Positions 2,453 through 28,666 of a stretch of DNA of 35,074 nt are shown piece by piece. The notes below the pieces were generated by a model that searched no databases, was not told the DNA's origin, and saw only the letters and a list, made by a program, of their open reading frames with translations. The stretch comes from a virus, in IMG/VR virus record IMGVR_UViG_3300022752_000208, positions 1-35,074 of that record; one strand, 5' to 3'. Both the position numbers and the translations under genes were made by a program. Within the stretch, counting starts at the first letter, position 1. Every line of letters starts with the position of its first letter.

Positions 2453-2480
2453 GTTACACCATGTCATGTTAAAGTATGAT
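2453..2480 (+). promoter_or_regulatory. Candidate promoter for the plus-strand lysis cassette
   Basis: A near-consensus -10 box TATGAT lies at 2475-2480, with a weak -35-like GTTACA at 2453-2458 (16-base spacer). The -10 box forms part of a 10-base palindrome TATGATCATA (2475-2484). A transcript from here would start about 15 bases upstream of the first codon of the secreted protein. It sits in the only divergent gap of the window, where a promoter is required. The -35 match is poor. Confidence 0.4.
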
Positions 2481-2500
2481 CATAGATAGAAGGAGAAAAA

Positions 2501-5113
2501 ATAATTCTACTGCGCCTATTCGCAGCACTAATCCTCATACTATTTCTCTCTATTCTGGGACAAAATTCAGCAACAGCAGAAGACACGCCTGTAACTACGG
2601 TGGTAGTTAGTCCTGCTTCCACACCGTCTTCGAACGAAGCGACTCCAACTCCATCTCCAAGTCCAGAACCCGTTGTTGTAACTTCGGCCCCTCAAACCTC
2701 CAATACGACAAGTTCTGCTGAGGCAAGTCCATCCCCGACGCCAAGTTCTTCGCCAACTTCTGGTTCATCCGAGCCAAGTCCGACTCCTGCGCCTGTATCT
2801 TCGCCTGAGCCCACTTCAACTGAATCGACAGCTTCAAACAGTTCTTCTTCTCAGGCTGGTACCACTGTATCCACGACACAAGGTAGCCCAATACAAACGT
2901 CACCAACAACAGTAGAGACTCCAACGGTAACCTCCGTTCAAGCAAAAATAGAGGGTGCAACTGTAACACTCAACACAGCTATTCAAGGTGCAAGTACAGA
3001 ACAAAAGACTGCAGCAGCTCCTGAAGTTCAAGCTGCTCAAGTTGCAATTACTGCAGCGGAGTCAGCTACTGCCGTAGCTGTTGTAGCTCAAGCTGCTGTG
3101 GATTCCCAAACAGCTGTAGTGGCTGTTGCTACCACTGCAGTTGATTCTGCCACTGCAACTGTAGCAACAGCAACTGCGGCAGTAGATTCTCAAACAGCTG
3201 TAGTTGCTACAGCTACTACTAATTTAACAAACGCTCAAGCTACTTTAACTACGCTTCAAAATACCCCAGTAAATAGTAAAACATACACAACTGCTGGATA
3301 TGTAGCGCCAACCCCAGTAGACACGCCAACCGTTACTACCACCACTTTGCCGGTCATGTATGACGCGGCAACTAAAATTCAAACCCCATTTGATATAAAG
3401 ATGGGGAATACCGTTTACGAAGGTCAGGGCGCAAACAGTCAGATCTATGTAACTTCTAAAGCAACTATTACGTTTGGTACCGGAGACTATAACTGGTGGG
3501 ATTTCCCTAACGGCCCAAGCATCTCTGTGTTTGCTAGCGATTATCAGAACGCTGGACCTGGAGCATCAACAGTAGTTAAGACTACGGAAACCACGTTAGA
3601 AGTTGACTGGAATCTTCATAAGTTTGCTGACCCAAATGGTCCAATCACTAACGTTAATTGGAAGATGACAGTCAACCCTACAACTGGTGAGTGGACGGGT
3701 AGCGGGACTATCTCAGGCAACACGACAGGGTTATGGAATGGTCCTCGTACAGGTGTGCGTGAGGCCTCAGGTCAGCCTGTGCAGCAGATGACTAATGTAA
3801 CTAATGAAACATTGACTGCTCAAATTGCAACTCAAACTGCAGTTGTTGCTGATAAAACAGAGGTAAAAGCAGAAGCAATAACTACTTTAACAACTTTAAC
3901 AGCTGAAAAAACAACAGCAGAGACAAATTTAACTGCTGCCCAGACAACGCTATCAACAGAGCAGGCAAACCTAACTACTACTCAAACAAACCTAACAAAT
4001 GCTGTAACTACAGCAAACGCTTTAGCAGATACTGCAACAGCAACAGTTGCCTCTGCGGTTACAGCTCTTCAAACTCCGATTCCTCAGCCGACTCCAACAC
4101 CTGAGCCAACTCCCGCACCGCAACCAGAGCCGATGCCACAGCCAACACCACAACCGACACCGCAGCCAACACCACAACCCGAACCTTCACCACAACCTAC
4201 TCCTCAACCCGAGCCAACTCCTGAACCTGCGCCGCAGCCAACCCCAGAGCCTGCACCAGTTCCTGAGCCAACTCCTGAACCTGCTCCTGAGCAGCCTGCA
4301 GAGCCAGAGCCAACTCCTGAAGAGCCACCTGTGGCAATTCCTGATCCTGAGCCATTGCCTACTGAGCCTGCCATAGAAGAGCCAGAGAAACCCACAGAAC
4401 CCCAACCAGAACCGGTAGAACCCGAAGCGCCACCCGTAGAACCCGAGGCGCCTGAGGAACCTTCCACACCCGAGGAACCAACACCAGAACCAGAGTCACC
4501 AGAGCCAGAGCCAGAAAATCCGTCCACAGAACCATCACAACCTCCTATTGAAGATACAACACCTGAGCCTACCACACCTGCAGAAGAAGTTGCATCAGCA
4601 GTAAAAGATGCTAAAGCTGATGGTGTGGTAACTGAAGCAGAAAAAGCTGTGATTGCTAACGCTTTAATTGAAGCGGCTAATGGCGGTCCGGTGTCTGCTG
4701 CTGCAATTGTTGAAGCTGGTCTTGAGTACAAAGATCTTCCACCAGAGACTCCGGTAGAGGTTAGACAGGATGAAAATGGTAACGAAGTTATAATTACAGC
4801 AGACGTTGCCGCAGCCCTCGTACTACTAGAGAACCCTGCGGAGTTAATTGGCGCAATATTTAGCGATCCGGGCGAAGCCCTTAAAGCACTTGGAAACATA
4901 GGTGCTGATATGTCACCAGAAGAACGAGAAGAAGCACAAAAAATGGTAGTTGCTGCAATTATTGCGGGTAATGCCGCACTTAATGCAGTAGGTATTGCTG
5001 CAGCTGCTGCAGGTGGAACCACAACGGGTGGATCAACTGGTGGTGGAGGCGGAAGTTCTGGTGGCGGTGGCGCTTCCGGAGAAACTAAAGGCGTTAGGAG
5101 ACGTAGACCTTGA
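2501..5113 (+). CDS. Large secreted Thr/Ala- and Pro/Glu-rich protein with non-AUG start
   Basis: The frame has no ATG, GTG or TTG before 2600, yet codons 2501-2578 encode a textbook signal peptide (hydrophobic core LFAALILILFLSIL, then SATA before EDTP). AGAAGGAG at 2490-2495 is followed by ATA (2501) and ATT (2504), so I infer initiation there; an in-frame TAG at 2483 rules out anything further upstream. From ATA the protein has 870 residues: signal peptide; Ser/Pro/Thr linker; Ala/Thr/Val coiled-coil-like helix (about 120-255, 28-residue repeat); a globular beta-rich domain (about 260-420) with many Trp and Tyr; a second helical Thr/Ala region; a Pro/Glu region (about 525-693); an EF-hand-like loop DAKADGVVTEAE (about 702); a weak hydrophobic helix (about 815-840); a Gly-rich linker and RRRR tail. 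I do not recognise the family. Its position ahead of two membrane proteins and an endolysin suggests a cell-envelope role during lysis or infection. Confidence 0.75.
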   Translation: MILLRLFAALILILFLSILGQNSATAEDTPVTTVVVSPASTPSSNEATPTPSPSPEPVVVTSAPQTSNTTSSAEASPSPTPSSSPTSGSSEPSPTPAPVSSPEPTSTESTASNSSSSQAGTTVSTTQGSPIQTSPTTVETPTVTSVQAKIEGATVTLNTAIQGASTEQKTAAAPEVQAAQVAITAAESATAVAVVAQAAVDSQTAVVAVATTAVDSATATVATATAAVDSQTAVVATATTNLTNAQATLTTLQNTPVNSKTYTTAGYVAPTPVDTPTVTTTTLPVMYDAATKIQTPFDIKMGNTVYEGQGANSQIYVTSKATITFGTGDYNWWDFPNGPSISVFASDYQNAGPGASTVVKTTETTLEVDWNLHKFADPNGPITNVNWKMTVNPTTGEWTGSGTISGNTTGLWNGPRTGVREASGQPVQQMTNVTNETLTAQIATQTAVVADKTEVKAEAITTLTTLTAEKTTAETNLTAAQTTLSTEQANLTTTQTNLTNAVTTANALADTATATVASAVTALQTPIPQPTPTPEPTPAPQPEPMPQPTPQPTPQPTPQPEPSPQPTPQPEPTPEPAPQPTPEPAPVPEPTPEPAPEQPAEPEPTPEEPPVAIPDPEPLPTEPAIEEPEKPTEPQPEPVEPEAPPVEPEAPEEPSTPEEPTPEPESPEPEPENPSTEPSQPPIEDTTPEPTTPAEEVASAVKDAKADGVVTEAEKAVIANALIEAANGGPVSAAAIVEAGLEYKDLPPETPVEVRQDENGNEVIITADVAAALVLLENPAELIGAIFSDPGEALKALGNIGADMSPEEREEAQKMVVAAIIAGNAALNAVGIAAAAAGGTTTGGSTGGGGGSSGGGGASGETKGVRRRRP
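3095..3220 (+). repeat. 84-base (28-aa) tandem repeat in coiled-coil-like region
   Basis: The peptide AVDSQTAVVA starts at 3095 and again at 3179, exactly 84 bases apart, with a related AVDSATATVATAT between them. 28 residues is four heptads, which fits an extended helical stalk. The second copy is partial. The repeat belongs to the secreted protein beginning at 2501. Confidence 0.6.
4075..4580 (+). repeat. Degenerate Pro/Glu/Thr (PxP, PEPTPEP) repeat region
   Basis: About 168 residues built from short units such as QPTPQP, EPTPEP and EPEAP. At DNA level this is a low-complexity run of CCA/CCT/GAG/CAA codons. Such Pro-rich stretches act as stiff spacers that cross cell-wall layers (TonB is a familiar example). 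The first half uses Gln/Thr between the prolines and the second half shifts to Glu, so the strand becomes increasingly acidic towards the C-terminus. Confidence 0.75.
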
Positions 5114-5280
5114 AAATTATTAAAGACATGATTGACCAACTATGGACATTGTTAGGCATGTTTATTGCCTGGGTTGTTCTGGATGGATCTGCAAAGACCG
5201 TAGTTGGCTATGCAATTGTCGGAACATTAATTGCTTGGGCAATCACCTATCCCCTTCGTAATCCAAAGGATGAGGAATGA
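5110..5280 (+). CDS. Small two-helix membrane protein, holin-like (56 aa)
   Basis: It begins at a TTG (5110) that overlaps the previous TGA stop (TTGA); AGGAG lies nine bases upstream, while the in-frame ATG at 5128 has no ribosome site. After a short amphipathic head, residues 12-24 (WTLLGMFIAWVVL) and 31-47 (VVGYAIVGTLIAWAITY) are hydrophobic, and the tail is NPKDEE. It has the small, two-span layout of class II holins and sits between the secreted protein and the endolysin. With another membrane protein directly after it, the pair could be a holin and antiholin; this is inferred from position and topology. Confidence 0.65.
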   Translation: MKIIKDMIDQLWTLLGMFIAWVVLDGSAKTVVGYAIVGTLIAWAITYPLRNPKDEE

Positions 5281-5669
5281 AATCAATCGGAAATATTATT
5301 TTAAGAATTGTAGCTACATTTGCAGCTAGCGGACTATCAGTAATTGGTGCCGGAGCTATTGCAGGAGTAGATACTATCACCGCCGTAACAGTTGCTGGTC
5401 TTACAGCAGTTGCCGCAGTCGTAGAGAAGCTAGCACGTGGCTTTATGAATGACGGCAAACTTGATCTTGATGAAATTAACGCAGCGTTTGCCGCTGTGGA
5501 TACTAAGGCAAAAAGCGCCGCAGATCTTCAAGTTGAAGCTAAACAAAACGGACAGAACATAACAATTGCTGCAACTGGAGCAGTATCTTATGCAGCAGCA
5601 ACTAAGCCAGATGGACAGGTTCCAGAAGAACACCCTGTTGATGAAGATTGGGCTAAGGAGAACAACTAA
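5277..5669 (+). CDS. Membrane protein with EF-hand-like loop, holin-like (130 aa)
   Basis: The ATG at 5277 overlaps the previous stop (ATGA). Residues 6-48 form two closely spaced hydrophobic helices rich in Ala, Gly and Val. They are followed by FMNDGKLDLDEINAAF, which resembles a calcium-binding EF-hand loop next to a helix, and then by a hydrophilic Ala/Lys/Gln-rich C-terminus ending EEHPVDEDWAKENN. Its place just before the endolysin supports a holin or lysis-control role. The EF-hand match is partial (one loop only) and metal binding is not shown. Confidence 0.65.
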   Translation: MKSIGNIILRIVATFAASGLSVIGAGAIAGVDTITAVTVAGLTAVAAVVEKLARGFMNDGKLDLDEINAAFAAVDTKAKSAADLQVEAKQNGQNITIAATGAVSYAAATKPDGQVPEEHPVDEDWAKENN

Positions 5670-6220
5670 TGGCAGATCAAGGCACAGCAGCAAAACTTAT
5701 TGAAGTTGCTACAGCAGAACTAGGAACTATTGAAGGTCCTAAAGATAATGAGACAAAGTACGGCGCTTTCACTAAGGCTAATTTCCAGCCATGGTGCGGC
5801 TCTTTCGTAATGTGGTGCGCTAACGAAGCTGGAGTAAAGGTACCTAATACCGTATACACCCCAGGTGGCGCAGCGGCATTTAAGAAAGCTAATGCTTGGA
5901 TTGACGGAGACCTTGCAGACCCAGAACCAGGGGATATCGCTTATTTTGATTTCCCATCAGACGGTGTCGATAGAATCAGTCACGTAGGTATTGTTGTAAA
6001 AGACAATGGCGATGGAACAGTTTGGTGTATTGAAGGAAATACCAGCCCAGATGAAAAGGGCTCACAGCGTAACGGTGGACAGGTTTCTAAGAAGCTCCGT
6101 GCTTATAAGAAGAACCCTAAGAAGGTAATGATTTCTATCGTTGGCTTTGGTCGTCCTAAGTTCAAAGATACAAGAGCTGCATCTGCAGCACCAGCAAAGT
6201 GTGCTTGCTGCGGTAAGTAA
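5669..6220 (+). CDS. Endolysin, CHAP-type peptidoglycan amidase/peptidase
   Basis: A 183-residue cell-wall hydrolase of the CHAP (NlpC/P60-like cysteine peptidase) type. The catalytic Cys is C43 in QPWCGSFVMWC, the His is H105 in ISHVGIVV, and the third polar residue lies in IEGN (E122/N124). PEPGDIAYFDF, the strand before the His motif, is typical of the family. It would cut peptide bonds of host peptidoglycan at lysis. No signal peptide is present, so export depends on the neighbouring membrane proteins. There is no clear separate wall-binding domain; the tail is a basic Lys-rich segment ending in a CACC cluster that might bind metal. Its start overlaps the previous stop (TAATG). Confidence 0.85.
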   Translation: MADQGTAAKLIEVATAELGTIEGPKDNETKYGAFTKANFQPWCGSFVMWCANEAGVKVPNTVYTPGGAAAFKKANAWIDGDLADPEPGDIAYFDFPSDGVDRISHVGIVVKDNGDGTVWCIEGNTSPDEKGSQRNGGQVSKKLRAYKKNPKKVMISIVGFGRPKFKDTRAASAAPAKCACCGK

Positions 6221-10265: not shown

Positions 10266-11145
10266 CGGTGCTCCTAAAAGGCTCACAACGTTTGCAGCCG
10301 TTGATTGGGTCTATATTACATACTGGTGGGCGCTTGTTATCAACTGCCCAGGCAACATCTAAGGCGCTCTCAAAGATCTCTTTTGTGTACTCTGGGTTAT
10401 AAGTGACCACGAACTCTTTATAATCTTGAGTTGATTTAAGCTCATAGATAAATACAATCTCATTTGGTGCTGAGGGTATCTCTCCAGCTTCAACCATCAA
10501 GTGAGTTAGGTGCAGGTAAACCTGACCCTGAAGTTGGTGTGCTCTAAAGGGAGCCCTAATATTCCGCCAAGCCTTCTCTATATCTCCGTCTGCCTGTGTT
10601 AACAAAGCAGGGGCTTCAAAGCGCAGTGTTCCCGGACCAATTGATTTAATCTCAATAAGAAAGTCTTCTCCCAAACCTTTTACCCAGCCGTCAGAGTGAC
10701 CAGAGATCATATGCTTAGGGCTATGCAAGGGAACTTCACGGTACTCAAAGGTACCGCACTCATCATTAAAATCTAGTTCGGAAGCAAGTTCCCAGTCTGA
10801 TGGGCCACAGCCACTGCACTCCCACTTACCGTACAGTACGCCCATCTCTTTAAGCCATGTTTGCCACTTGTCATGAATGTAGTGACCTTCAGCAAAGATA
10901 GAAGCTAAGCGTAGATTTGGTTTCTCACGAACCTCTTTATAGTTACCTGATAATGCATGATAAGAAGCTAGGTGACACCACTCAGGTTTAATGATGTCAG
11001 AAGGATGTAGAACGGCCATATTACGAGAATCAAAAGGCTTAGACAATAGGTGGCGTTCGATAGCCCCCACTAAACGACTCTCACGCTTATTAGCATCTAG
11101 GAATGCCTTTAATGCGCTTGTTTTAGGTTTGCCCGTACTTACCAT
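10258..11145 (-). CDS. Cas4/RecB-like PD-(D/E)XK exonuclease with Cys cluster
   Basis: 295 residues. The nuclease core is HMISGHSDGWV (H150, D152) followed by FLIEIKS (E165, K167), the RecB/Cas4 catalytic pattern. C57 (PEWCHLAS) plus C276, C284 and C287 near the C-terminus (CNIDPINGCKRC) form the four-cysteine arrangement that holds a 4Fe-4S cluster in Cas4 and AddB. A further CSGC (C110/C113) and C130 may bind zinc. Such proteins process DNA ends, often as 5'-3' exonucleases. No other cas gene is present, so this is a phage recombination exonuclease rather than part of a CRISPR system. It overlaps WhiB by 23 bases. Confidence 0.8.
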   Translation of the reverse strand: MVSTGKPKTSALKAFLDANKRESRLVGAIERHLLSKPFDSRNMAVLHPSDIIKPEWCHLASYHALSGNYKEVREKPNLRLASIFAEGHYIHDKWQTWLKEMGVLYGKWECSGCGPSDWELASELDFNDECGTFEYREVPLHSPKHMISGHSDGWVKGLGEDFLIEIKSIGPGTLRFEAPALLTQADGDIEKAWRNIRAPFRAHQLQGQVYLHLTHLMVEAGEIPSAPNEIVFIYELKSTQDYKEFVVTYNPEYTKEIFESALDVAWAVDNKRPPVCNIDPINGCKRCEPFRSTDA

Positions 11146-11452
11146 CCTGGTTTATCCATTCGTCTAATGTTAATCCTTGTTTTGTATATTTTCTTTGAGC
11201 TGCATTTCTTTCTCTGTGGGACATGCCCCCAAATATTCCGTGCAACTCATCGTTTATGATAGCTTCTTTAAGACACTCTTTGCGAACTGGACATGCCGGT
11301 CGGCCGTCCTTCCCCCAACAGATTGCTTTAGCTTTATCCGCTATCGGTTTGTATAGAGCCTTATCTCTTGGAGGAAAAAACATCTCTGTATCTTCTCCGC
11401 GACACTTAGCACTATAACGCCAAGCCCACTTGGGCTCGTCTGGGTTTTCCAT
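11123..11452 (-). CDS. WhiB-like transcription factor with stretched Cys spacing (CX8C)
   Basis: 109 residues with clear WhiB features: CRGEDTEMFFPP (C17), a cysteine block, then GIFGGMSHRERN, the G-[IVL]-[WF]-G-G turn and DNA-contact region. WhiB proteins bind a 4Fe-4S cluster through four Cys and act with the host sigma factor. Normally the central pair is CxxC; here C45 and C54 are eight residues apart (ICWGKDGRPACPVRKEC), with the last Cys at C60 in normal CX5C spacing. Six residues have been added exactly in the cluster site, which may alter redox behaviour. GAGGTG lies before the ATG. It would regulate phage or host genes. Confidence 0.85.
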   Translation of the reverse strand: MENPDEPKWAWRYSAKCRGEDTEMFFPPRDKALYKPIADKAKAICWGKDGRPACPVRKECLKEAIINDELHGIFGGMSHRERNAAQRKYTKQGLTLDEWINQDGKYGQT

Positions 11453-17383: not shown

Positions 17384-17887
17384 TTACTTAATAGGGATTT
17401 GCTTAGGCTTCTTTTCTTCAGGCAAAATGCGCTCCACGGTGATGGTTAGGAGGCCGTCTTCAAACTCAGCCTTGGTAACCTCCATGTGGTCAGCTAGGGT
17501 AAACTCTTGATCAAAGTCACGTCTAGCAATTCCCTGATGAATGTAGTCAAACTCGTTGTTACCAAGATGACTATTGATCCCCTCACCTGATACCGTAAGA
17601 ATATTTTCTTGCTTAGAAATAGACAAACCGCTTTTATCAAAGCCAGCTAAAGCCATCTCAATATAATAAAGATCTTTATTTACCTGACGAATGTTATATG
17701 GCGGATACGAAGCTTGCTTTGCAGCAGTAGACACCTCTTTAAATACTGTAAGAAGAGGGTCAAATCCAATAGCCCAGCGATCAAAGTTTGGAAATAAACT
17801 ATTGATTGTTACTGGCTTTGGAAGTACTTGCTTTGGCTGACCCCATTCGTGATCTGGGTAGCCTTTAGGGTTGGGCATAAATGCCAT
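17384..17887 (-). CDS. hsp20: Small heat shock protein (Hsp20/alpha-crystallin)
   Basis: 167 residues with an N-terminal FDRWAIGFDPLL segment as in IbpA-type proteins, then the alpha-crystallin domain (about 63-150): YPPYNIRQVNKDLYYIEMALAGFDKSGL, then NILTVSGEG, then the strand and A-x-x-x-x-G-L-L type end AEFEDGLLTITVER. The C-terminal tail KKPKQIPIK contains the I-x-I anchor motif (IPI). It holds unfolding proteins and would protect virion or replication proteins. AAGGAG is placed well before the ATG. Similar genes are known in cyanophages. Confidence 0.9.
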   Translation of the reverse strand: MAFMPNPKGYPDHEWGQPKQVLPKPVTINSLFPNFDRWAIGFDPLLTVFKEVSTAAKQASYPPYNIRQVNKDLYYIEMALAGFDKSGLSISKQENILTVSGEGINSHLGNNEFDYIHQGIARRDFDQEFTLADHMEVTKAEFEDGLLTITVERILPEEKKPKQIPIK

Positions 17888-20991: not shown

Positions 20992-21172
20992 TGTATTCTC
21001 TCCCGTCGATAGGTGTAGGAGCTGTTGCGAGTGCATCACACAAGGCACACTGCATATCAAGCATGTATAAGGAAATCTCCCCATCCTCAAACATAGCCTT
21101 TACATTCCACAAAGTCGAACCGCAAACGCACACATGCAACGGAGCGTCTTTGTCTCTAAGATCTAAACTCAT
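20984..21172 (-). CDS. Zinc-ribbon mini-protein (62 aa)
   Basis: The ATG at 21172 overlaps the WhiB stop (ATGA). Two metal-binding knuckles, CxC (C15/C17 in HVCVCGS) and CxxC (C42/C45 in QCALC), are 25 residues apart with a beta strand between (GEISLYML), as in a zinc ribbon. It is wedged between the WhiB gene and a 71-aa gene, and its tail overlaps the latter by eight bases. Its function is unknown. Confidence 0.65.
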   Translation of the reverse strand: MSLDLRDKDAPLHVCVCGSTLWNVKAMFEDGEISLYMLDMQCALCDALATAPTPIDGREYNG

Positions 21173-21423
21173 ATTAATGCCCTCTTTCGTCGTCGCATAT
21201 TTCTACGTTCATTTGGAGTCGTAGCTCCCCAGATACCCTCAAGGCTTGAATCCTTGATTGCATACACCAAGCACGCTGAGGTTAAAGGACAGCTTTGACA
21301 AATAGCCTTTGCTTGTAGCACGGCTGCTTTGTCATCATAGTCTTCTGGAAAGAACATCTCAGGATCTACAGACGTACAAGCTTGAGTTCCATCAAATGGT
21401 ACTGATTCCAAATAGAGATCCAT
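21169..21423 (-). CDS. WhiB-like transcription factor, canonical (84 aa)
   Basis: I took the ATG at 21423; the longer frame upstream only reads through the helicase gene. Features: CTSVDPEMFFP (C16), ICQSCPLTSAC (C42, C45, C51; normal CxxCx5C) and GIWGATTPNERRNMRRRKR, with the turn followed by a basic DNA-binding tail. This is a standard-length WhiB that binds a 4Fe-4S cluster and a host sigma factor. Its gene overlaps the DnaB helicase by about 30 bases and leads the primase segment, so it may time replication genes. Confidence 0.88.
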   Translation of the reverse strand: MDLYLESVPFDGTQACTSVDPEMFFPEDYDDKAAVLQAKAICQSCPLTSACLVYAIKDSSLEGIWGATTPNERRNMRRRKRALI

Positions 21424-22633
21424 ACTCCTCGAACTTCCCTTCTTCCCAGTCCCATAGCAGATCACTTGTAGCCGGTCCGCAGTTACGGCTTGCAACGATA
21501 CGTAGTTCACGAGATGTGTCATCTTCCTCATCTTGCTTTTGCAAACCGAGGATTACATCAGAGTCTTGATAAAAAGATGATGAGTAACCAATAGCATCTG
21601 CTGATACCTGGCGCTTCTTCATCTTCCACAATAGAACCTGAGTAGAGATAACAATAGGAAGTTTCTTAGCCATAGCTAAGTGCTTTAGGTTACGAGTGAT
21701 GTTAGTAAGTGCTTGAGGACTATTGGATTCCCCAGTTACCTCATCAGTCATGAGATAGACACCATCTACAAATACGATGTCAGGACGAATCTTGTCGATC
21801 TTTGCAGCAAGACCTGTAACAGTCATTGCAGATACAGAATCGGTTAGATAGAACTTGTGCATCGTTTCCATTGCTTTCAACTCAGCCATGTAACGATCTT
21901 CTTCAGCTTTAGTCAGGGCCCCGCGAATGAGCCGAGAGTGAGCAATGCGAGCACGCATAGAATCGTGTCGCTGCTGCTGCTCTAAGTTGGTCATCTCAAA
22001 AGATTGGAACATTGGAACAAAGCCGTCTCTATGTACGTTGACTGCCATCTGCATTGCAAGGACTGATTTACCTGTCTTAGGTGGAGCAATAATGGTTACA
22101 AGTTGTCCTGGCTGTAAACCGGCAGTTGCCTCATCAATAGTTTTAAATCCTGTTGCAAAACCTAATAGACCATTTGGTCGTGTCTTAATATTTGTGTAAT
22201 CATCAAAGCGTTTAGTGGCATTATCGGTTAAATCAATATCCCCCGATTCACGAACGCCCTCGTCAATTAGTCTTGCTACACCTTGACTAAGAACAGCAAT
22301 AGCGCCGTTATGATCACCACTAGCAATAGCTTCGGAAGCATCCTGAACAACTGTGATTGCGTGCTGACGTTTGCGGTATTCAACTAACTGATCTAAAAGA
22401 TACTCAAGAGTGTCATCAACAGCTAACAAACGATAAGTTGGAAAGTTATCTAGAACAGTAACTGCAGTGGGAACTTCTTGATACTTAGTCCAATGTTGAC
22501 GTAAGAATCTCCATACTTGACGATTTTCATCAACAAAAAACCAGTCGTCAGTAACTCCTGCTTCAAGTAACGGAGATATATCTCGGGTTCGAACAGCTCG
22601 AGATAATAATCTGACCTCGTTGTCTGCTGCCAC
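21392..22633 (-). CDS. dnaB-like: Replicative DnaB-like helicase
   Basis: 413 residues from a GTG (22633) with GGGAGG five bases upstream, overlapping the previous stop (TAGTG). The N-terminal helical domain (1-130) resembles the DnaB primase-binding domain, followed by the RecA-like motor: Walker A APPKTGKS (183-190), an SFEM strand (211-214), Walker B DIVFVDGVYLM (about 283-293) and ISTQVL near 340. DnaB-type hexamers unwind DNA 5'-3' at the fork. It sits between the DnaC-like loader and the primase, as expected of a phage replisome. Confidence 0.9.
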   Translation of the reverse strand: MAADNEVRLLSRAVRTRDISPLLEAGVTDDWFFVDENRQVWRFLRQHWTKYQEVPTAVTVLDNFPTYRLLAVDDTLEYLLDQLVEYRKRQHAITVVQDASEAIASGDHNGAIAVLSQGVARLIDEGVRESGDIDLTDNATKRFDDYTNIKTRPNGLLGFATGFKTIDEATAGLQPGQLVTIIAPPKTGKSVLAMQMAVNVHRDGFVPMFQSFEMTNLEQQQRHDSMRARIAHSRLIRGALTKAEEDRYMAELKAMETMHKFYLTDSVSAMTVTGLAAKIDKIRPDIVFVDGVYLMTDEVTGESNSPQALTNITRNLKHLAMAKKLPIVISTQVLLWKMKKRQVSADAIGYSSSFYQDSDVILGLQKQDEEDDTSRELRIVASRNCGPATSDLLWDWEEGKFEEYGSLFGISTI

Positions 22634-25219: not shown

Positions 25220-28200
25220 CTACTCCTTAAAGATTACCTTGTCAAGGTGGAAGGTACGTCCCACACCCGTAGATGTTGGGTCGCAAGTTACCTCAACTTT
25301 TGCAAAAGAAACTCCAGTATTAGAGAATCTTGCAGAGCCAGTTACTTCAGTTTCCGCCAAGTTTGTAGCCGAACGGGTAAATGAGAACGTTGTATCTGTT
25401 ACAGACTCAATAGTTATGGTTCCAGATAAGGATGAGTAGTTGTTAACAGAGAGTGTTACGTCTTCCCCGACAGAAAACTTGTGAGATCCACGAGTAGTTA
25501 CTGTTACAAGGTTACTAGCCACAGATACGGCAGTTACAGCTACCGTTCTAGTGCCGGGGGCTACGATATCCATATACGCCCAACGATCATGTCTATTAAT
25601 TACCATAGAGGTAGTTTTTTCTCTTAAAAAGCCAGTGCTTTCTGCATACCACTTTAACTTCAAAGTATATGTTCCGTAAGCGTCCTCATTTTCTGGCTTT
25701 ATTGCAATTGATGTGTAATAACCAGTTACAGGATCTATATCAATTAGGTCGGTAATAATTCCAAAGCTAGTTGCCGCTGTAGAGGTTACTTTACAGAATG
25801 CTGCTCCCTGAGTTAGTAATTCATCAAAAATTGTTCCTCTAGAAATAGACCTCTTTAAGTTTGCTGAAACCCCATTCCAACCACTTAAGTTTAATTCAAA
25901 AGATGGGGATGTTAGAAGTGTTCCTGAGATCTCATTTAATCCTACGTTTGATTCGTGAGTTCTTACAGAAAATGTTGATCCAATTGGTGTTACAAGATTT
26001 AGAGAGGAAATAAGGCGTTGATACTTTTCAGTATAACGAACTCCATAAAAACTATACCCCGCGTTAACCATAGAAGCATACGTATAGGATACCGTTTCCC
26101 CAGATTGAGCTGGATTAGCAGTTGTAGTAGTTAAACTATTTGATGGATCAATAAACGGAGTGGCTACTCTTCCAAACTCTGCCTGAACTCCATCAACATG
26201 AAATACCTTTGTTCCTGACCCAGCTTCGCTTAAAGAAATTGTTATGTCAAAGCTAGTCTCTCCTACGTTTGCAATTCTGTTTACGTGAATGCGAGTCCAA
26301 GAAGAGGAGTTTGCTGAAGAAACTCTAAAAGAGTTTACTGCCTGACCGTTTGTTCCTATAGAGTATAGGCCGGCAACATTTTTAACGTAAGCAGAAATAA
26401 CTACGTCTTCTCCGCCAATACATGCACCTCTTGGGTAATAAACTGTTGTGGTAATAGATCCCCCACCAGTTGCAGATACGTTTCCTCTTTTTGTACCAAA
26501 TAATGGGTTGGAGGTAGAGACCGTAAAGGTAGTTCCAGATGCTGCGGTCCACTTACTTGTATCAGCAAATGCAGAGTTAGTGACCATATTAAGCTGGTTT
26601 CTGCTATCCCAAGTGCAGTCACTTGTAGGAAAAAAGCGTTGAAGATTTGGATTTGTTGGTACTGGTCCCCCATCTCCCTGGAAATAATCTGATATCTCAG
26701 GAAGCTCTACCATCATTACAGAGTCTACGTAAAATACGTCCCCCTCTTGTGCATCAGGGAAGTAAACAGAGGATTTAACTAAAGGATCGCTAAAGTCCTC
26801 TCCATTTACTGGGGACACTCCGTAAGCAGTAATTCTGGTAGCAGTTGCTGACAGCGTTGTAGTAGAACTATCCACATAGTATGGGGTTGTAGGGTAGTAC
26901 TTTCCATCATTGTCTGAAAGAATCTGAACCTGTTCTTCGTAAGACTGTTTAGACGAATACTCTAGTCTAACCACGGCGGTTCTTCCCACAGGCCCACTTA
27001 CATAAAATCCTACGGTATACGGAGTTCCTGGGTTAACTGTTTGCCAATCAGAAATTAAAGCTGCTTTAGCTGTAGACAAAGCAGTAATTTTAGCTACAGC
27101 TGTTCCAAAGATTTTTGCAGTAGACGGAGGATTAAAATCCTGAACTACTTCGGCGTTATACCCCTGCCACCAGCTAGTTCCTGAATCAAAACTTGGATTA
27201 AGAATAAAATTTTCTTGATCGGCTTCAATATTAACTTTAATTAATCTTGCGTCTTCGTACTCATAACTTGGTAGTTTACCTGCGTTAGTTATGCCTAAAT
27301 TATCTGCTTCTCTAAAATCAAACATATCAAATATAACTTTAGTTGAGCTTGAGTTTGCAGTAAGAGATATGGATATTTGTACATATTTTGAATTTATAGG
27401 GGCAAGCAATCCGTCGCTAATTCCCTCAGACGCAGATCTAATTTCTTGCCAAGAAGTAGTAGTTGTTACAGCTGTTCCTGCAGAACTTGTAGATAATGTG
27501 GATCCAGATTTATCTAGCCACTTTAAAGATATAGAAACGTTAGCAGAATCAGTTAAATGTCTAACCCATCCTTTAAATATGTATCTTTTACCTACTATAA
27601 CTGGAATTGTGGTGCTTGTTCCTGAGCCTAAATTTAAAGTTTTTGTTGCAGTATTTGATACTGTTACTACTCCGCATCCAACTTGACGAAGTGGCCACGC
27701 TGTACGAGATAGCGGTACTGTTGGTGGTACAAGAGAAGTACCTAAATCAGCTAAAGTTGTAGCATATTTTTGATGAACAATGGTTGCTCCGGTACTTGAA
27801 AAAGACCAATGACCTATGCTTTCTTCAAAAGAAGCATCATTATAGTCAAGAATAAGGTTTCTACCTTGCTGTACAGTAGCTCCCCAGTGAGTTAACGCTG
27901 TTGCGTATGTAGTAATAGCTGCTGAAGTTCCTTTAACAGCATTGATAAAGTTACCGTTTTTGTATAAAGACCTGTGGTAGGTATCCCCCAAAGAAGGTTC
28001 ATAAATAAATCCTAGATCTGTTACTTTATTTTTTAATAAAATTGATGGAATATTTCTAGCATCAGCATAGTCTTGAAGAAGAGACGCTTGTACCCTAAGC
28101 TTGTCGTACTCAAAACTATAAGCATCAATAATTTTACTTAAAGCAGTTTCTTCTGCTTCACCAATTGCGTCACCTATGCCGCTTGTTTCATTTAACCAAG

Positions 28201-28666
28201 CCGCTGGTAGCCAACGTTTAAAGTATTCGGGTGTTTGTGTAGAAGCAACGGTGTTTACTACAGTACTTCCGCAGTTTATCCAACGACTATTTGCATAGCT
28301 ATTTATATTTCCAGATCCGTCAACTGACGCAGTAAATACCCAAATAGTGTATGTAACTTCATGGTTTTCTGTAAGAGTTGACTCATCGTCTACATACGTA
28401 AGTCTAAATTCTGAAGGTAACGCTCCGTAATCTAATACGTCTCCAACGTATGGATTATCTGGGACACCGACATAACTTCTAACAAGACGCCAAGCTATAG
28501 GTACATATGGGGCATCATCTGGATCACTAATGATAGATTTCCAGGTTAGAGAAACAGTTTGGTAGTCGTATGACCAACCAAAAATACCAGAAGAATAGTA
28601 AAGGCGATTAGCATCTACTTCTCCGTACTTTGGTAGTCCATACGTACCAAAACCATATTTAGCCAT
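25220..28666 (-). CDS. Tail protein I-like protein fused to lectin-like modules (1148 aa)
   Basis: Domains in order: a beta-rich N-terminus (about 1-140, FN3-like); a P2 gpI-type tail protein domain (about 145-265, YDKLRVQASLLQDYADARN...LGDTYHRSLYKNG); then at least four jelly-roll, carbohydrate-binding-like modules, each opening with an N/S-P/A-S-F-x-x-W type line (starts near 270, 490, 680 and 880); and a C-terminal Ig-like strand region with SHKFSVGEDVTL. gpI joins the baseplate wedge to the fibres, and the modules probably bind host surface glycans. No chaperone or fibre-tip gene follows. It would be a receptor-binding element of the baseplate. Confidence 0.75.
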   Translation of the reverse strand: MAKYGFGTYGLPKYGEVDANRLYYSSGIFGWSYDYQTVSLTWKSIISDPDDAPYVPIAWRLVRSYVGVPDNPYVGDVLDYGALPSEFRLTYVDDESTLTENHEVTYTIWVFTASVDGSGNINSYANSRWINCGSTVVNTVASTQTPEYFKRWLPAAWLNETSGIGDAIGEAEETALSKIIDAYSFEYDKLRVQASLLQDYADARNIPSILLKNKVTDLGFIYEPSLGDTYHRSLYKNGNFINAVKGTSAAITTYATALTHWGATVQQGRNLILDYNDASFEESIGHWSFSSTGATIVHQKYATTLADLGTSLVPPTVPLSRTAWPLRQVGCGVVTVSNTATKTLNLGSGTSTTIPVIVGKRYIFKGWVRHLTDSANVSISLKWLDKSGSTLSTSSAGTAVTTTTSWQEIRSASEGISDGLLAPINSKYVQISISLTANSSSTKVIFDMFDFREADNLGITNAGKLPSYEYEDARLIKVNIEADQENFILNPSFDSGTSWWQGYNAEVVQDFNPPSTAKIFGTAVAKITALSTAKAALISDWQTVNPGTPYTVGFYVSGPVGRTAVVRLEYSSKQSYEEQVQILSDNDGKYYPTTPYYVDSSTTTLSATATRITAYGVSPVNGEDFSDPLVKSSVYFPDAQEGDVFYVDSVMMVELPEISDYFQGDGGPVPTNPNLQRFFPTSDCTWDSRNQLNMVTNSAFADTSKWTAASGTTFTVSTSNPLFGTKRGNVSATGGGSITTTVYYPRGACIGGEDVVISAYVKNVAGLYSIGTNGQAVNSFRVSSANSSSWTRIHVNRIANVGETSFDITISLSEAGSGTKVFHVDGVQAEFGRVATPFIDPSNSLTTTTANPAQSGETVSYTYASMVNAGYSFYGVRYTEKYQRLISSLNLVTPIGSTFSVRTHESNVGLNEISGTLLTSPSFELNLSGWNGVSANLKRSISRGTIFDELLTQGAAFCKVTSTAATSFGIITDLIDIDPVTGYYTSIAIKPENEDAYGTYTLKLKWYAESTGFLREKTTSMVINRHDRWAYMDIVAPGTRTVAVTAVSVASNLVTVTTRGSHKFSVGEDVTLSVNNYSSLSGTITIESVTDTTFSFTRSATNLAETEVTGSARFSNTGVSFAKVEVTCDPTSTGVGRTFHLDKVIFKE

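Follow-up and report, generated by a model that had tools for sequence, protein, structure and literature searches.

A predicted phage surface protein with exchangeable tip domains, paired with a small two-TM protein at the head of a lysis operon

Results

The surface-protein gene is the first gene of a lysis operon

The window, that is the whole stretch of DNA analysed, is a 35,074-base IMG/VR record (IMGVR_UViG_3300022752_000208). A single open frame extends from behind TAG 2483–2485, or an equivalent in-frame stop, to TGA 5111–5113, and relatives share this frame. The ORF is a genuine gene and heads a lysis operon of four overlapping genes, which encode the surface protein, c15, the r1t-holin-like c3 and the CHAP endolysin c2 (Table 1). 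The initial annotation had placed the protein at the head of a lysis cassette, which the endolysin and the operon order bear out; it missed the 56-aa c15 at 5110–5280. c2 matches PF05257 in Pfam (E 6e-12) and endolysin PHROGs (E values to 2e-25), and the holin matches of c3 are weak (PF16945, E 0.028; phrog_443, E 0.005).

An endolysin lies at most 4 kb downstream of the surface-protein gene in 102 of 122 non-redundant loci. The gene order surface–c15–c3–endolysin was observed in 69 of the 122 and the order surface–c15–lipoprotein–endolysin in 30, with other orders in the remainder. A different membrane protein occupies the place of c3 in the two lipoprotein-order loci that were read (L005 and L031), and the surface–c15 pair is constant while the holin-like gene varies between loci. 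In the 30 loci, c15 and the holin-like gene are separated by the gene of a small lipoprotein-like protein, which bears an RYPCQDP motif (L031, 6695–6898; L005, 8234–8473) and has no match in Pfam or PHROG.

The DNA polymerase and the endolysin nearest to those of the window belong to Streptomyces phages. Together with two WhiB genes, these similarities point to a host among the Actinobacteria and stop short of proof. Cultured freshwater Nanopelagicales phages carry whiB and have a similar GC content (PMC10202952). In the window, an Hsp20 chaperone and the two WhiB proteins are encoded on the minus strand (17384–17887, 11123–11452 and 21169–21531). The same strand encodes a 1148-aa tail-region protein with a CBM_4_9 domain (25220–28666), which is likely to be a tail fibre or receptor-binding protein.

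Table 1. Features of the surface-protein locus in the window.
Feature	Position	Strand	Basis
Promoter-like element, GTTACA, 16 nt, TATGAT	2453–2480	+	Consensus scan, 9/12
Shine-Dalgarno AAGGAG of the surface-protein gene	2490–2495	+	Sequence; kept in near relatives
Surface-protein gene, probable AUA start 2501, stop TGA 5111–5113	2501–5113	+	
Signal peptide (ending in LFLSILGQNSATA, followed by ED)	2501–2578	+	Translation; core and AxA conserved in relatives
Ser/Thr/Pro-rich linker	2579–2929	+	Translation
First T/A/V-rich coiled-coil-like stretch	2930–3268	+	Translation
Tip domain type A, all-beta, 179 aa	3269–3805	+	AlphaFold2 fold; other domains at this place in relatives
Second T/A/V-rich coiled-coil-like stretch	3806–4069	+	Translation
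Pro/Glu stalk, about 170 aa	4070–4579	+	Translation, relatives
C-terminal anchor module, helices and beta hairpin, conserved	4580–4912	+	Family alignments, AlphaFold2
Long hydrophobic helix, putative membrane segment	4913–5011	+	AlphaFold2 helix; KD 1.93; weak alone
Gly/Ser-rich linker, low predicted order	5012–5092	+	
Shine-Dalgarno AGGAG of c15, within the RRRR codons	5096–5100	+	
c15, 56-aa two-TM partner, TTG start over the surface-gene TGA	5110–5280	+	
c3, r1t-holin-like membrane protein, ATG overlaps the c15 stop (ATGA)	5277–5669	+	Weak matches, position
c2, CHAP endolysin, abuts c3 at 5669	5669–6220	+	

The C-terminal codons of the surface protein carry the ribosome-binding site of c15

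The 56 residues of c15 contain two hydrophobic segments (KD 1.70 and 1.74). c15 is thus a small two-TM protein adjacent to lysis genes, as a holin-like protein would be, and it has no significant match among holin families. The gene directly follows the surface gene in all 115 members with enough downstream sequence, and the stop and start codons overlap nearly always. The reverse search gave a similar picture: the C-terminal module is encoded upstream of 73 of 77 c15 genes, and the other four stand at a contig start (three) or behind a short ORF (one).

An AGGAG-type sequence is present at nearly all of the surface/c15 junctions examined. The RRRR end had been read as a feature of the protein. 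A tail that serves membrane topology or nucleic-acid binding explains it less well than the ribosome-binding site of c15, because AGGAG persists where the peptide reads YRRKP, GGRRW or RRGKW. With c15 constant and its Shine-Dalgarno sequence within these codons, the basic C-terminal motif is, in part at least, a signal at the nucleic-acid level.

Translation most likely starts at an AUA codon

No ATG, GTG or TTG precedes the signal-peptide core in the surface gene of the window, and a start at GTG 2600, the first one listed, would leave out the signal peptide. Relatives that share the signal peptide have ATA, ATT, ATC, ATG or TTG as the third codon ahead of a conserved CTG, a pattern that is expected of a start codon and for which we conceived no alternative. 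This register, the AAGGAG at 2490–2495 and the sigma-70-like promoter at 2453–2480 make AUA 2501 the most likely site of initiation. A start at ATG 2476 followed by slippage on the A-run was rejected; the frame offset varies among relatives, and the codon sits inside the -10-like hexamer.

Of 79 distinct start regions, 20 lack any ATG, GTG or TTG ahead of the hydrophobic core, and an ATG is present in 12. In the endolysin gene of the operon, the start codon is ATG in 55 of 55 cases. The use of weak start codons suggests that the surface gene tends towards low expression. A motif at 2463–2479, GTCATGTTAAAGTATGA, overlaps the promoter-like element and is unique in the window. A looser form of it occurs once per locus, just upstream of the surface gene, in 14 relative loci, and the motif may be a dedicated promoter of this gene.

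Export, stalk and membrane end of the surface protein

The surface protein comprises a signal peptide, a Ser/Thr/Pro linker, a T/A/V coil, the tip, a further coil, a Pro/Glu stalk and the C-terminal module, followed by a hydrophobic helix, a Gly/Ser linker and a basic end. This order confirms the coiled-coil-like flanks and the long Pro/Glu spacer described by the initial annotation. Its call of a secreted protein also stands: signal peptides, assessed by motif and hydropathy statistics, show a hydrophobic core followed by AxA, which is present in 83 of 94 full relatives against a baseline of 46% of segments drawn at random from these proteins. Some relatives have an A/E/K/R helical stalk instead of the Pro/Glu stalk, and the Gly/Ser linker is missing from short relatives that end in AAYRRKP. 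By simple arithmetic, an extended Pro-rich stalk of 170 residues would measure tens of nanometres, enough to cross a wall.

The AlphaFold2 model of the C-terminal module has a mean pLDDT of 70.4 and a pTM of 0.48 (pLDDT 68–88 over 4580–4912), and the module has no match in a structure search of the PDB. The C-terminal membrane anchor proposed from the sequence is plausible, and hydropathy alone is weak evidence for it: the best 19-residue KD is 1.82 at the C-terminal end and 1.67 elsewhere, so that the anchor helix does not stand clearly above Ala-rich stretches of the same protein and a TM call on this basis is not discriminating. The family median charge around the helix is -3 before and +4 after. 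No LPXTG-like motif was observed in the family alignments directly before the C-terminal helix and basic tail.

What had been taken for an EF-hand-like loop is a single copy of a helical repeat, DGxhTxxE, which occurs in several copies in some relatives. Loop residues 1 and 3 are not acidic, contrary to an EF hand (DxDxDG, 12th Glu), and the closest Pfam family of the multi-copy relatives is TerB (1.2e-4), below the cutoff. The window protein has no Pfam or PHROG family above cutoff. An Ig_mannosidase match (residues 751–789) also fell below it, whole-protein phmmer matches in the PDB were mainly to Pro/Glu low complexity, and a PADLOC match to JetC over the T/A/V coil (E 0.003) was judged compositional.

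Tip domains are exchanged on a constant base

The compact Trp/Tyr-rich central domain singled out by the initial annotation is predicted with high confidence. Residues 257–435 form an all-beta fold in AlphaFold2 (pLDDT 95.0, pTM 0.92). A match to a virion fibre or decoration protein had been named as one finding that would speak against a surface protein; comparison with solved structures in the PDB, virion fibres included, gave no match (best TM 0.24). The only two matches in BFVD, at E of about 1e-9, are A0A6J5NEV5 ('TerB_like domain containing protein') and A0A6J5P6J9, unannotated proteins of uncultured phages with automatic names. A PDB 'Tub' profile match (E 0.15) was set aside, having neither an independently significant stretch nor fold support. 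No relative of the tip was found in 84,980 prokaryote genomes scanned with an exact-peptide pre-filter, which could miss distant relatives of the tip or of the anchor module.

Other domains occupy the tip position in relatives. Besides type A and a divergent form C, these are PA14 (9e-7), SUEL lectin (5e-11), a weak FnIII and a small Cys domain. Tip type changes at least 18 times on the tree of the anchor module and c15, for which the minimum is 4 and the shuffled mean 38. Sister anchors can bear different tips, as in L066 (PA14) and L018 (A). The whole records of these two are colinear at roughly 75–90% nucleotide identity, and their surface genes align over 31% of the length owing to the replaced tip; a stretch of tail genes is also divergent, as seen between L364 (10547–13866) and L362.

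Searches that started from the tip recovered the C-terminal module in 76 of 78 type-A ORFs. One type-A ORF (L317, 3359–4639) lacks the module though its locus continues, a possible frameshift or truncation. In 26 records searched, the type-A tip is confined to the surface gene; its absence from the other genes of these phages gives no direct sign of a receptor shared by tip and tail fibre. Since the tip of the window has no relative of known function, sugar binding is suggested by analogy with the alternative tips. The rapid exchange, on a constant base, of tips that are known or likely to bind carbohydrates would be expected of a protein that has to match variable surface glycans.

Distribution and a parallel fused family

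A single-sequence search with the window protein retrieved 40 viral contigs, and the C-terminal anchor module alone retrieved at least 579 IMG/VR contigs; the contigs of the viral scan are partly redundant. The module was likewise not found in the 84,980 prokaryote genomes under the same pre-filter. The window protein, a short PA14-tipped relative and c15 have no match in INPHARED. The surface proteins range from about 400 to 1000 aa, exactly one copy is present in each of 30 whole records, and the surface–c15 system spans many phage groups, with contigs up to about 100 kb.

A parallel family has the same layout with the partner fused. In DSL-LC01, a metagenome-assembled Actinomycetia phage, a 944-aa protein ends in a two-TM hairpin; in 57 contigs of this family a long ORF ends in the fused c15-like hairpin, and in L224–L228 the hairpin is a separate gene behind a similar long protein. 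A comparison of c15 with the hairpin in hhalign gave a probability of 88 (E 3e-6 for a single comparison), and the hairpin profile retrieves c15 genes at E < 1e-3. As both are short membrane hairpins, these links make homology likely and fall short of proving it. The fusion brings the C-terminal end of the surface protein to the membrane. Judging from its basic N-terminal end, the hairpin would be preceded by a cytoplasmic stretch. The tips of the parallel family include L-type lectin (6e-43), SUEL, PA14 and fn3 domains, and a c3-like gene lies downstream in 19 of 30 of its loci. One member (L229, 1686–5171) combines an L-type (legume) lectin domain (E 6e-43), a SUEL domain and the fused two-TM tail.

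Discussion

The exported, tethered layout of the surface protein is well supported, and its function is one that we infer. The initial annotation had proposed that the phage encodes a surface protein whose outer domains are joined by a stiff spacer to an attachment at the C-terminal end. The signal peptide, the binding-type tips of relatives, the linkage to an endolysin and the fused c15-like hairpin of the parallel family all agree with it. The sequence does not discriminate between the roles then suggested, namely envelope stress, superinfection blocking and host coating.

We tentatively favor a lysis-stage, membrane-tethered, lectin-like mast that acts on host-surface glycans, either in exclusion or in freeing progeny from debris. 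Sequence comparison supports the export signal, the module layout, the c15 pairing, the lysis-operon linkage, the tip exchange and the weak start codon; the membrane topology, the contact with c15, the glycan binding of type A, the timing and the function in exclusion or release are putative. The protein would be made at the lysis stage and exported by Sec with cleavage of its signal peptide. Its C-terminal end would be held at the cytoplasmic membrane by the anchor module and the two-TM partner c15, and the Pro/Glu or coiled-coil stalk would carry the exchangeable lectin-like tip out through the wall. Late in infection the tip would bind glycans of the host's own surface; their occupancy could prevent competing phages from adsorbing (superinfection exclusion) or keep released progeny from being lost on debris. 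The scheme suggests that viruses redecorate the surface of a cell about to burst.

Production with the lysis genes fits such a masking of receptors, but the position in a lysis operon also fits a direct role in lysis and in that respect counts against the mast. The protein could be a lysis component or timing sensor, the exported part of which senses or pulls the outer layers while c15 is the effector or is restrained. The overlap of the surface gene and c15 with a holin-like gene and the endolysin, the pairing and fusion of c15 and the retention of the pair while the holin-like gene is exchanged agree with such a sensor, and a lysis gene whose dose matters would be well served by a weak start codon. 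A timing sensor would not be expected to change lectin-type tips so often, however, and c15 lacks a significant holin-family match; this reading is the main rival of the mast and the less probable of the two. Models for it are the T4 RI antiholin with the T holin and the spanin-like tether. Like T4 RI/T and the spanins, the surface protein would be an exported protein that works with membrane lysis genes; unlike them, it has no sequence or profile match, bears lectin-type tips and is expected in a monoderm-type host. Actinobacteria are normally monoderm, and spanins link the inner and outer membranes of a diderm host.

That infected or dying cells become sticky, so that progeny are freed beside new hosts or on particles, is improbable. 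A cell-cell adhesin of this kind would account for the bacterial-adhesin layout and for PA14, L-type lectin and SUEL tips, but the late, lysis-linked position leaves little time for it to act and no tip relative was found in the prokaryote genomes scanned with the exact-peptide pre-filter. The layout itself is that of MSCRAMM/LPXTG adhesins: a signal peptide, an exposed binding domain, a Pro-rich wall-spanning stalk and C-terminal anchoring. In contrast to these, the surface protein is encoded in a phage lysis operon, has no sortase motif and has an obligate two-TM partner, and the codons of its basic C-terminal residues also serve as a ribosome-binding site. A stalk with an exchangeable tip is also typical of virion fibres. 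A fibre or decoration protein with an incidental hydrophobic N-terminal end is nonetheless decidedly unlikely, because most members have an AxA signal peptide, a two-TM protein accompanies the surface protein or is fused to it, and the gene lies in the lysis operon rather than among tail genes; the tip fold matches no fibre in the PDB or BFVD. Least probable of all is a secreted or displayed effector directed against grazing protists, or against organisms other than the host and phages. Lectins and a freshwater setting would suit it, whereas the design is tethered and no toxin or catalytic domain was found.

If the mast acts in exclusion, its nearest functional counterparts are T5 Llp, phi80 Cor and TP-J34 Ltp, small superinfection-exclusion proteins that are mostly lipoproteins. 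These are likewise phage-encoded, exported and presumed to act at the host surface, whereas the surface protein has about 400–1000 aa with a swappable tip and a stalk, and its exclusion role is putative. It is possible, and we put it forward with reserve, that the swappable lectin-tipped mast and c15 constitute a phage-specific two-component system that couples lysis or exclusion to the state of the cell surface. The tip domains include well-known folds; what appears to be new is the pair of anchor module and c15 and its place in the lysis operon. Literature searches that covered lectins of phages, exclusion and the lysis cassettes of freshwater phages yielded nothing on the surface–c15 system, and no such system is known to have been described.

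Freshwater phages, probably of abundant Actinobacteria, would thus possess a dedicated and rapidly diversifying surface-display system that is unnamed in the annotation libraries searched. A role in blocking superinfection or releasing progeny would add a widespread layer of phage competition, and from the tip type one could read which glycan the host surface bears. Three features, namely c15 pairing, natural fusion and tip exchange, open the system to direct tests.

Another PA14 relative has a single match in INPHARED, through its PA14 tip, to gp018 of the Pelagibacter phage HTVC008M (NC_020484.1; L125, 3763–8164). gp018 adjoins phage-encoded curli genes of the CsgF, CsgG and CsgB types, and HTVC008M, a SAR11 phage, may be a second phage that builds surface appendages.
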